Below are positions 22,783 through 27,031 of a DNA stretch of 44,768 nt, in pieces; within the stretch, counting starts at the first letter, position 1; every line of letters starts with the position of its first letter. The DNA lies in NCBI GenBank assembly GCA_018824145.1, contig JAHJHC010000033.1, forward strand, positions 1-44,768. The letters run 5' to 3'. The position numbers and the translations under genes are program-made. The notes beneath the pieces were generated by a model that saw only the letters and a program-made list of their open reading frames with translations, was not told the DNA's origin and made no database searches. Source of the stretch: Candidatus Omnitrophota bacterium (GTDB lineage Bacteria > Omnitrophota > Gorgyraeia > Gorgyraeales > Gorgyraeaceae).

Positions 22783-22817
22783 ACCCCCGCATCTTTATAA
22801 GGTGCGGGGGTTTTTTT
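22783..22817 (+). terminator. Intrinsic terminator after the cold-shock gene
   Basis: ACCCCCGCA...TGCGGGGGT forms a GC-rich stem of about nine pairs, followed by a run of seven T (22811-22817). It ends 11 bases before the start of the next gene. Confidence 0.95.
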
Positions 22818-22828
22818 ATGGTAAAATT

Positions 22829-23116
22829 ATGAGTGAGTTTATAAGGGTTTGGAAAAATGTCGATATGCAGGATATTTCATCTCATCTCCTTATTGTCGGA
22901 GAGATCAAAGGAGAATGTTCAGGATGCCGGGCGCTTGGTATAGACTATCGAGAAGCCAAGACCTGCCCTCAATGTAATGCTAGCTTTAAATATATCGCCT
23001 CTAGAACTAAAGAGGTGAAAAGGATAAAGGAAAGGCGTCCGGATCTGATTTTTATAGATTTCGAGGATTATAAAAAGGTATTAGGTAAGATAAAAGCCAG
23101 GGATTTTCTCTCTTAA
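22829..23116 (+). CDS. Small zinc-ribbon protein (unknown function)
   Basis: A 95-residue protein from ATG 22829 (MSEFIRVWKNVDM). The earlier frame opening at 22802 lies in the terminator and is not used. Two CxxC knuckles, CSGCRAL and CPQCNA, about 17 residues apart, form a probable zinc ribbon. The C-terminus (RRPDLIFIDFEDYKKVLGKIKARDFL) is mixed helical. No Shine-Dalgarno is visible, and TAAAAT sits immediately before the ATG. I do not recognise the family; RNA or protein binding is a guess. It is convergent with the glycosyltransferase gene, 9 bases apart. Confidence 0.65.
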   Translation: MSEFIRVWKNVDMQDISSHLLIVGEIKGECSGCRALGIDYREAKTCPQCNASFKYIASRTKEVKRIKERRPDLIFIDFEDYKKVLGKIKARDFLS

Positions 23117-24203: not shown

Positions 24204-25715
24204 ATGTCGTATATATCACACGAAAATAAGAAAGTTTTATTGGCAGAACATCAGAAGTCTATTTTAGATATATTGGTATATCTTCTAAAGGCATGGGACT
24301 ATGAAGTCATTACTGCTACAAAGGGGGCATCAGTCCTTGAGATAGTCAGACAACAGCAGCCTGATATAATTATTATAGATTATACGCTTCCAGGCATCGA
24401 TGGGTTAATCGATGGGTTAGAGGTATCAAAGGCCCTAAAAGAAGATTTTCTTACCGCACATATCCCTGTAATAATCCTCATAGATAAAAAACACATGAGG
24501 AAGAAGATGCTGGAAATAGAGCAAGGCGTGGATGATTATATTGCTAATCCTCCGGATCCGATAGATCTGGAGGTAAGACTAGAGATGGCATTGCGCCGGA
24601 CTGCATATCAGTTGCATGCGAATGCGTTGACTAAGCTTCCGGGAAATAGACGGATAGAAAAAGTCATTCAAACAAAGATCGAACAAGGCCTGGATTTCTC
24701 TGTAGCGTATTACGACATAGACAATTTTAAATCCTTTAATGACAAATACGGATACATGAAAGGCGATAACCTGATACGACACACAGCTTATATAATCTCG
24801 ACGATAGTAAAGAGATATGGAAATAAAGATGATTTTGTCGGCCATATCGGAGGGGATGATTTCGTCGTAGTTACCACTCCCGAAAATGAGGTGATAATAG
24901 CATCTGAATCGATATCGAACTTCAATAGACTTGCACAGTTTCATTATAGTGTAGAAGACAGGCAAATGGGATATATTACAGTCAAAGACAGAAGGGGAAA
25001 CTTGTTAAATACCCCTCTAGTAAGCATTTCCATAGCAATAGTGAATAATAAGGAGTCTAAGGCGCAGAGTATTGTAGAGATCATGGAGATAGTCAATGAG
25101 GTAAAGCGCTATTTAAAAACGCTCCCAGGCAGTAATTTTTTAATTAATCGCAGGGTATCGGCAAAAAGAGAAAAAGAAGACCTTGATCAAAAAGTCAGCG
25201 TTGAACATAAATCAGTTACAAAATCTACCCGCGGCGTGAAATACAAGCCATTAGGTCAGATATTGCTAGAGTCACAGGTACTGTCTCCTCAGCAACTTGA
25301 AGTCGCCTTGAGTAAACACTGGAGCACTGGTCAGAAAATCGGCACAAGTATTATGGACCTTGGTATGGCAAGTGCTGGGGACATAGCAAGGGCGTTGGAA
25401 CTTCAACTGGATATACCTCACTTCGATCTAAGGAAGTTGAAAAGCGATAAAGAATTGAAGGAACTTATACGTATGATACCATTAGATGTAATGAAAGACC
25501 ACCATATCATACCTGTTGATAAAGAAAAAAATGTAATAAGTCTAGTTATGTTGGATCCCAAAGATTTTAAGGCAATAGATGAAGTGAGAAGTTTGAATAA
25601 TGGATGCAGCATAGTTACTTTTTTTGTCCTTGAGAACGAGTTTAAAGAGATATGGGAAAGGACGATAAAAGAGAATTCGGATATTATCCAAAAGGAAAAG
25701 CAGAATATTGGTTAA
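24204..25715 (+). CDS. REC-GGDEF-MshEN signalling protein
   Basis: A 503-residue protein. Receiver domain, 1-130, with phosphoacceptor Asp59 (IIIIDYTLPG). GGDEF domain, about 140-312: LTKLPGN, YDIDNFKSFNDKYG metal site, and an active-site loop HIGGDDF (216-220) with Asp in place of the usual Glu of GGDEF/GGEEF. C-terminal part, about 348-490, matches the MshEN/T2SSE_N domain (PLGQILLESQ, LSPQQLEVAL, KIGTSIMDLG), a known c-di-GMP-binding module. It probably makes or senses c-di-GMP in response to phosphorylation. A 12-bp tandem duplication at 24396-24419 adds four residues beside the phosphorylation loop. It is tail to tail with the c-di-GMP riboswitch RNA. Confidence 0.9.
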   Translation: MSYISHENKKVLLAEHQKSILDILVYLLKAWDYEVITATKGASVLEIVRQQQPDIIIIDYTLPGIDGLIDGLEVSKALKEDFLTAHIPVIILIDKKHMRKKMLEIEQGVDDYIANPPDPIDLEVRLEMALRRTAYQLHANALTKLPGNRRIEKVIQTKIEQGLDFSVAYYDIDNFKSFNDKYGYMKGDNLIRHTAYIISTIVKRYGNKDDFVGHIGGDDFVVVTTPENEVIIASESISNFNRLAQFHYSVEDRQMGYITVKDRRGNLLNTPLVSISIAIVNNKESKAQSIVEIMEIVNEVKRYLKTLPGSNFLINRRVSAKREKEDLDQKVSVEHKSVTKSTRGVKYKPLGQILLESQVLSPQQLEVALSKHWSTGQKIGTSIMDLGMASAGDIARALELQLDIPHFDLRKLKSDKELKELIRMIPLDVMKDHHIIPVDKEKNVISLVMLDPKDFKAIDEVRSLNNGCSIVTFFVLENEFKEIWERTIKENSDIIQKEKQNIG

Positions 25716-25738: not shown

Positions 25739-25916
25739 AAAAAAAGCCGATAAAGGCGAGTAGCATCGGCTTTTCATCGCCCGGTAACCCAGCCACCATA
25801 TTACTCGCTGACTGCCTCACTAACTCTTTGTTTTCAAAAGAGTTACGGCTTGTCAGAGTAACGTAGGTCTGTTGGCTTTGCGCCCCCTGATTTCTCAAGG
25901 TTTGCCTTTATCGGCT
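25739..25916 (-). ncRNA. Cyclic di-GMP-I riboswitch (GEMM-I) RNA without a sense-strand gene
   Basis: On the minus strand, the RNA has the class I c-di-GMP core: GGCAAACC, a P2 stem capped by GAAA (TTGA-GAAA-TCAG), then GCGCAAAGCC, then a long extended P3 arm, and GGTGGCTGGGTTACC as the 3' core. Against the Vc2 aptamer, equivalents of G20, A47 and C92 are present, favouring c-di-GMP over cGAMP. The first 13 bases (AGCCGATAAAGGC) are complementary to GCCTTTATCGGCT, which is followed by seven T. A competing shorter stem (AAGCCGAT/ATCGGCTT) can form the terminator. Downstream on this strand lies only the antisense of the GGDEF gene. Precise ends are inferred from the promoter and T-run. Confidence 0.9.
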
Positions 25917-25923
25917 ATAGTAA

Positions 25924-25952
25924 ATTATACCATAGTAACTAACTTTTTTCAA
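25924..25952 (-). promoter_or_regulatory. Sigma70 promoter of the c-di-GMP riboswitch RNA
   Basis: On the minus strand, TTGAAA (25952-25947) and a perfect TATAAT (25929-25924) are 17 bases apart. Transcription should begin at about 25916, the first base of the RNA's pairing arm. Confidence 0.88.
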
Positions 25953-25978: not shown

Positions 25979-27031
25979 ATGAGAATATGTAAAATAGCTA
26001 TTATGATGTTGTTATTTTGTCTTATGTTGCTATATTTGGGTGAAAATACAGGGGTTGCTGAACTGCTAGGAGAAGAAGACACCCCAAAACAAAGAGGCCC
26101 TATAAGTATCCGGAACCAAATGCCCCTTTATCTTTTCTATTTACAAATGGTGCCTGACAAGGCAGATGTCACTAAGAGAAATAGATTCACGATAAATGCG
26201 GATTATACTGTCTCAAATATAACCGTAAGCGCCTTTACACCTGTTACCTCACTATACGAAATAGAGATAGACATGGAGGTTTCAAGGGTTACCCTTGATT
26301 TCAGGTATGGGCTTTATGACAATTTGGAGATAGGGTTGGAAGTCCCTTATCTTGACCTATCCAGAGGCTACTTGGATAATCCTATAGAAGCATTCGAGGA
26401 TGGAACAGGTGCGAGAACGCCCCGTTCACGGGAACGTCAAGGCTCATACAATTTCGAATATACTTTTCGATATAATTACAAGTATTACATAAGACAAACG
26501 GAATCTACGGAAGGTTTGGGAGATATCGTGCTCAATGCAAAATATCAATTGTTAAAAGAGGGCCGGTTCTGGCCGAATATTTCCATGAGATCAGCCATAA
26601 AGTTCCCGACTGCAGAAAAAGATGATTTCTTGGGAAGCGGAGAAGTTGACTATGGAGTAGGTTTATTGATAGATAAGGGATTCTTCGGGAGATTGTTTAT
26701 CTATACCGGAGGTAATATTGCCTTCATAGAGAAACCGTCTTTTTTCAGTGAAATAGGTATAGACAAAGAGATTCTTTCATTTCTTTTGGCATTGGAATTT
26801 TTTGTCACAGAAAGATTTTCTTTGGTAACTCAGGTTACGGGAAATACCACACCGTATCCATATAGCAATACAAACCCGTTGGATAATAAGGCGTATGACA
26901 TGGGTGTAGGTTTTAATTATACATGGAAAGAAAAGAGCAATATATCATGGCGGTTCGCAGTTTTCGAAAATATAAGCGCTGCATCTAGTCCTGACGTCAG
27001 CTTGAAAACAGGCCTGAGCTGGAAGTTTTAA
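25979..27031 (+). CDS. DUF3187-like outer-membrane beta-barrel protein
   Basis: A 350-residue protein with an N-terminal signal sequence (MRICKIAIMMLLFCLMLLYLG). GPISIRNQMPLYLFYLQM followed by repeated amphipathic strands (RVTLDFRYGLYDNLEIGLEVPY, DYGVGLLIDKGF) and a C-terminal Phe (GLSWKF) fit an outer-membrane barrel of the DUF3187 type. Its function is unknown. GGAGG lies just upstream of ATG 25979. The gene reads away from the riboswitch RNA, whose promoter lies within 60 bases on the other strand. It is 4 bases upstream of the pseudouridine synthase gene. Confidence 0.85.
   Translation: MRICKIAIMMLLFCLMLLYLGENTGVAELLGEEDTPKQRGPISIRNQMPLYLFYLQMVPDKADVTKRNRFTINADYTVSNITVSAFTPVTSLYEIEIDMEVSRVTLDFRYGLYDNLEIGLEVPYLDLSRGYLDNPIEAFEDGTGARTPRSRERQGSYNFEYTFRYNYKYYIRQTESTEGLGDIVLNAKYQLLKEGRFWPNISMRSAIKFPTAEKDDFLGSGEVDYGVGLLIDKGFFGRLFIYTGGNIAFIEKPSFFSEIGIDKEILSFLLALEFFVTERFSLVTQVTGNTTPYPYSNTNPLDNKAYDMGVGFNYTWKEKSNISWRFAVFENISAASSPDVSLKTGLSWKF

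Follow-up and report, generated by a model that had tools for sequence, protein, structure and literature searches.

The closest described system is merRNA of Bdellovibrio bacteriovorus, a 445-nt c-di-GMP riboswitch RNA that has no conserved downstream open reading frame, is massively expressed in attack phase and, in its authors' proposal, serves as a store or reservoir of c-di-GMP; the same authors report no conservation outside Bdellovibrio (PMC3627812). In c-di-GMP-I aptamers generally, the ligand is contacted by the nucleotides that are numbered G20, A47 and C92 in Vc2 (PMC4744006). A survey of antisense-orientated riboswitches finds the strongest antisense tendency among those for c-di-GMP, with 152 cases, and covers antisense-acting examples in which a SAM riboswitch lies over ubiG-mccB-mccA and a cobalamin riboswitch over pocR (PMC9943018). 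For most Omnitrophota a predatory or parasitic way of life is proposed (PMC10066038), in a paper where the words riboswitch and c-di-GMP are absent, and our literature search found no paper joining this phylum with either subject.

The RNA that we describe here lies in a 44,768-nucleotide stretch of Omnitrophota DNA, the window. Judged from its sequence, we consider it probable that this is a stand-alone, end-closed c-di-GMP-I RNA gene, encoding a conserved Omnitrophota ncRNA that would be terminated with or without ligand and would act as a buffer or as a ligand-switched sRNA. Like merRNA, it appears to be a c-di-GMP aptamer housed in a stand-alone ncRNA with no conserved downstream open reading frame, although the assignment to the merRNA type concerns a predicted transcript and is based on the promoter and the stem with U tract at its two ends and on the heterogeneity of its neighbours. 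Unlike the 445-nt merRNA, it is mostly 130-240 nt long, is conserved in many families and possesses a covarying end-helix. It is far more widely conserved than merRNA, and it has a defined, if predicted, terminal-helix switch. The locus comprises the following features, in window coordinates:

25739-25916, minus strand: the whole predicted stand-alone RNA, 178 nt, in the order terminal helix, c-di-GMP-I aptamer, linker, terminal helix, U-tract
25924-25952, minus strand: sigma-70 type promoter, TTGAAA-17-TATAAT with extended TG
25780-25916, minus strand: c-di-GMP-I aptamer (RF01051) with a GAAA-capped P2 and a long P3
25904-25916, minus strand: 5' strand of the terminal helix, AGCCGAUAAAGGC, nucleotides 1-13, overlapping the ligand pocket (nucleotide 11)
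25745-25757, minus strand: 3' strand of the terminal helix, GCCUUUAUCGGCU, nucleotides 160-172, with 13 of 13 pairs in the window
25744-25739, minus strand: U-tract directly after the terminal helix
25741-25774, minus strand: local terminator hairpin AAAAGCCGAU/AUCGGCUUUU, predicted at -12.3 kcal/mol, competing for the same 3' strand
25807-25858, minus strand: distal P3 module, AAGCCGU-stem-AGUGAGGC, with a conserved internal loop common to three families
24204-25715, plus strand: REC-GGDEF-MshEN gene, tail-to-tail with the RNA (Pfam GGDEF 3.4e-16, Response_reg 6.3e-15, MshEN 6.6e-12)
25979-27031, plus strand: gene for a DUF3187 outer-membrane-like protein, divergent from the RNA and a conserved neighbour in the family

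A preliminary description of this DNA had proposed a minus-strand promoter, a complete c-di-GMP-I aptamer and a terminator here, and all three stand. The promoter at 25952-25924 matches 11 of 12 consensus positions and sits 8 nt upstream of the aptamer, with a predicted transcription start near 25916. The aptamer, put to the Rfam model as that description had suggested, aligns over minus-strand positions 25916-25780 with the full length of RF01051 (1-87; score 61.1 bits, gathering score 35, E 1.1e-9), while its score with RF03167, the c-di-GMP-I-GGC model, is 53.3 bits and falls under the cut-off of 59. Its consensus core is matched via GGCAAACC, GCGCAAAGCC and GGGUUACC, and the equivalents of Vc2 G20, A47 and C92 are present, nucleotide 11 being the G20 equivalent in our own alignment. 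The terminator, a stem and U-tract ending at 25739, lies exactly where it had been placed; it is absent from the list of a simple terminator scan because the loop limit of that scan is 8 nt. What had not been described is the 13-bp helix that joins the two ends of the RNA, and this is the conserved part. The plus strand at 25745-25757 reads AGCCGATAAAGGC, so that the 3' strand is the exact complement of the 5' strand at 25916-25904, and the minimum-energy fold of the RNA closes this helix directly against the U-tract. That fold is far more stable than those of shuffled sequences (z -5.5, 0 of 200). The feature is real: a chance match to the aptamer is ruled out by the bit score, the fold z-score and the conservation described below. 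In its aptamer, tetraloop and ligand-contact nucleotides the RNA is like other members of the c-di-GMP-I class (GEMM-I, RF01051) and of RF03167, and it is predicted to bind c-di-GMP; it differs from those riboswitches in that there is no cis-regulated gene here, in that the promoter abuts the aptamer, and in that the pocket's 5' strand forms a helix with the 3' terminus of the same RNA.

Within the window's family the arrangement is constant. The RNA occurs in 15 of its genomes, with aptamer, end-helix and terminator kept in all 15 copies, the local terminator hairpin likewise maintained, and the promoter present wherever the contig reaches. The opposite-strand GGDEF gene is the next gene downstream in every one of the 15, and the divergent DUF3187 gene lies upstream wherever the flank extends that far. 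As the preliminary description had observed, no sense gene follows: none is found for about 1.9 kb in the window, where the nearest gene on the minus strand in that direction encodes a glycosyltransferase (23821-23126) and lies past the GGDEF gene of the plus strand, and none directly follows the RNA in any of the family copies. That description had also considered whether related genomes might show the RNA before a sense gene that is lost or misassembled here, and for this family both explanations are ruled out by the same layout in 15 of 15 separate assemblies; its suggestion that the c-di-GMP-I RNA is free and brings its own promoter and terminator gains support from these copies. The remaining four of the 19 family genomes (G001, G005, G015 and G018) yielded no stand-alone copy, and since all are draft assemblies, loss and assembly gap are indistinguishable. 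The window's genome carries six c-di-GMP-I aptamers in all. A long P3 is not a defining feature, as three family copies with a short P3 keep everything else. The distal module is absent from three family copies and present in the other 12 as well as in families f11 and f42. The module (AAGCCGU-stem-AGUKAGGC) has a constant loop and a variable stem, and somewhat resembles a kink-turn internal loop.

Beyond this family, the stand-alone type was separated from ordinary riboswitches in several ways. Among 125 aptamers from about 60 relatives, an end-helix of 12-14 bp with a U-tract singles out the family copies and a few from other families, and the great majority of the remaining aptamers have a sense gene downstream. 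A covariance model of the full RNA, R1, was built from 14 stand-alone RNAs and scores 147.5 bits (1-145) with the window RNA, itself one of its training sequences. In a class-wide search, 267 of 334 genomes match R1 at E<=0.001, a figure that includes ordinary c-di-GMP-I riboswitches, the strong full-length matches being the stand-alone group. At E<=1e-14 the model finds 64 of 285 genomes across the phylum, all of them in the same class, and 63 of the 64 have exactly one copy. In total the RNA is present in more than 60 other Omnitrophota genomes from about 21 further families, nearly always as one copy. Three features define it, namely a promoter placed to start transcription at about nucleotide 1, an end-helix of 9-13 bp that ties the 5' end, with the G20 equivalent, to the 3' end, and a U-rich tract after the helix; most of the ordinary cis-acting c-di-GMP-I riboswitches in these genomes have none of the three. 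Promoters were counted if they had no more than 3 mismatches in 12 positions and if the last base of the -10 box fell 4-10 nt ahead of nucleotide 1. By this measure 17 of 18 RNAs in a first set (the window's family and four others) have one, as do 53 of 65 RNAs of the wide set outside the window's family; the figure is 6 of 106 among ordinary riboswitches and 3.7% for upstream sequences after shuffling. Promoter spacing in the relatives is the same as in the window, and most copies beyond the family have a U-rich stretch behind the helix. Some of the RNAs, in f2 and f29, score best with RF03167. A stand-alone RNA is very likely, and because the same RNA recurs about once per genome in many families, it is probably free-standing rather than a local antisense switch.

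Two further observations touch on the reach and descent of the RNA. A similar RNA with a consensus promoter and end-helix occurs in an Auribacterota genome (L073, 4500-4800), so the class may reach beyond Omnitrophota. In the window itself, 2.6 kb from the RNA, a 102-aa protein without a Pfam match is encoded at 22802-23116 on the plus strand; it is homologous to the gene immediately after the RNA in f54 and f43, and this homology suggests vertical descent.

The terminal helix shows covariation. In an alignment of 14 sequences it is paired in 97.8% of cells, against 28-52% when slid, and core pairs 3-9 are unbroken in 81 of the 90 copies, which come from 22 families. The 3' strands were placed by best pairing, anchored on these core pairs, and therefore only the columns outside the core test covariation fairly. 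At the six flanking positions of the 90 RNAs, 298 of 354 cells pair where shuffling gives 270.8 on average (p<=0.0002), and restricting each of the 22 families to a single copy leaves the signal in place (median p 0.005). Positions 1, 2, 10 and 13 covary, pair 12 shows no covariation among the 90 RNAs, and compensatory variants include GACC/GGUC and GGCUGAU/AUCAGCC. A change from G to A at the equivalent of Vc2 G20 is linked to cGAMP specificity in GEMM-I aptamers. Two stand-alone copies have A for G at position 11 (L266 2001-2145 and L276 2001-2142): in the first, from genome G272b, an A-U pair replaces G-C, the 3' partner now being U, and in the second, from G119, the pairing as read requires a small bulge. 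The local hairpin is ruled out as the sole terminator, given that the terminal helix is conserved across families and the local arms differ.

How such an RNA might operate can be outlined from folding models, whose energies cover secondary structure only, without ligand or tertiary contacts. In ViennaRNA the closed state of the window RNA has -69.4 kcal/mol, a state that frees nucleotides 10-13 but retains the outer nine pairs has -61.8 kcal/mol, and a state in which the 5' strand is open and the local terminator hairpin forms has -57.3 kcal/mol; all three end in a stem beside the U-tract. Since ligand-free and ligand-compatible states alike have this ending, termination is expected either way, and we infer from the models that the ligand would rearrange a finished RNA and leave termination unaffected. 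Transcription would begin at about the first nucleotide of the RNA; the terminal helix, or the local hairpin that rivals it for the 3' strand, would terminate it in the presence or absence of c-di-GMP; and a discrete RNA of about 175 nt would consequently accumulate. Binding of c-di-GMP would have to open the inner two to four pairs of the helix, while the outer nine could stay. The free RNA would then be a c-di-GMP buffer or a ligand-switched trans-acting RNA and would not control the adjoining gene. Either function is plausible on the sequence, and the use that the cell may make of the free RNA is the least certain part of our analysis.

A narrower version of the same explanation dispenses with buffering and has the RNA pair with distant mRNAs or bind a protein, c-di-GMP exposing or hiding a pairing segment. 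We hold this only tentatively: the predicted competing structures and the conservation of the distal P3 module in three families speak for it, but that module is missing from three family copies, and the sequence outside the aptamer and terminal helix is variable among copies.

Another reading develops the read-through proposal of the preliminary description: c-di-GMP would alter termination at 25739, and the read-through RNA, or RNA polymerase itself, would repress the GGDEF-MshEN gene in a feedback loop. The layout does resemble that of antisense-acting riboswitches, in that transcription through aptamer and terminator heads for the 3' end of a gene that converges on them; GGDEF synteny holds in all 15 family copies, the end of the GGDEF gene overlaps the RNA in several copies, competing stems are predicted, and other c-di-GMP riboswitches have been put forward as antisense-orientated (PMC9943018). 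Yet the same RNA is kept beside unrelated genes in other families, both predicted states end in a stem and U-tract, and the GGDEF stop codon ranges from 24 nt inside the RNA to 74 nt beyond its end, an overlap that is not conserved. Conservation beside the GGDEF gene, which that description had proposed to check, is complete in the 15 copies of the window's family. In the roughly 21 others the neighbours are unrelated, and no GGDEF gene appears near the RNA among the 25 commonest Pfam families of each neighbour list, so that within this scope the association with a GGDEF target is confined to the window's family. Because the GGDEF neighbour is invariant within the family, synteny cannot separate a local effect there; all 15 copies carry GGDDF at the active-site motif, and whether the protein is an active cyclase is uncertain. 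In contrast to the known antisense-acting riboswitches, ligand-dependent read-through finds no support in the folding models here and the antisense neighbour belongs to one family. The read-through proposal is weakened to the point where we regard it as unlikely; the GGDEF gene may be subject to an antisense loop in this one family, which is not a general explanation.

Neighbouring genes elsewhere, called mechanically as the longest open frames, are diverse. For the 74 copies outside the window's family the next gene downstream is sense in 55 and antisense in 19, and as the sense genes are often family-specific, read-through control is possible there. One such gene is GH1 in f3, and a GH1 glycosidase gene follows the RNA in seven copies; other neighbours encode alanine racemase, a CobO-type adenosyltransferase, M48 peptidases, CorA, Thi4, PRA isomerase and others. 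PilZ genes occur near the RNA twice downstream and twice upstream, again among the 25 commonest Pfam families of each list. In f32 (L134 = G049, L255 = G075) an RNA of the stand-alone type sits just upstream of a PilZ-like gene, and a cis role is possible there for that reason. On L276, a cobalamin riboswitch lies near the c-di-GMP RNA on the opposite strand (1711-1910). That the RNA is an ordinary cis riboswitch whose sense gene varies by family and was lost or moved here, leaving a relic or an element controlling the glycosyltransferase 1.9 kb downstream, draws on those 55 copies and on GH1, but it is very improbable, given that aptamer, end-helix and terminator are all kept in the window's family without a sense gene, that downstream genes are unrelated between families, that the neighbours are antisense in f11, f46 and some f38 copies, and that in f2 a second terminator-like hairpin and a TPP riboswitch, thi4's own (L139 2333-2445), part the RNA from this next gene.

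We return, then, to the free, end-closed RNA, and lean somewhat towards its fullest form: lineage-wide, one-per-genome c-di-GMP-sensing RNA genes in which the 5' strand of the ligand pocket, with the specificity nucleotide G20, is base-paired to the 3' end of the same molecule, so that c-di-GMP would toggle a closed ncRNA and not a neighbouring gene. If this is true, an ncRNA would be switched by c-di-GMP in bacteria that are proposed predators or parasites, as Bdellovibrio is, a parallel in lifestyle that is suggestive only. A riboswitch is almost always taken to control the gene that follows it, and some of those catalogued as antisense-acting from where they lie may be free RNAs. The idea of an RNA as effector or reservoir of c-di-GMP rests, in the literature searched, on one species, that of merRNA; an aptamer kept as an independent RNA gene over many Omnitrophota families indicates that here, too, the RNA itself may be the effector or reservoir of the second messenger.
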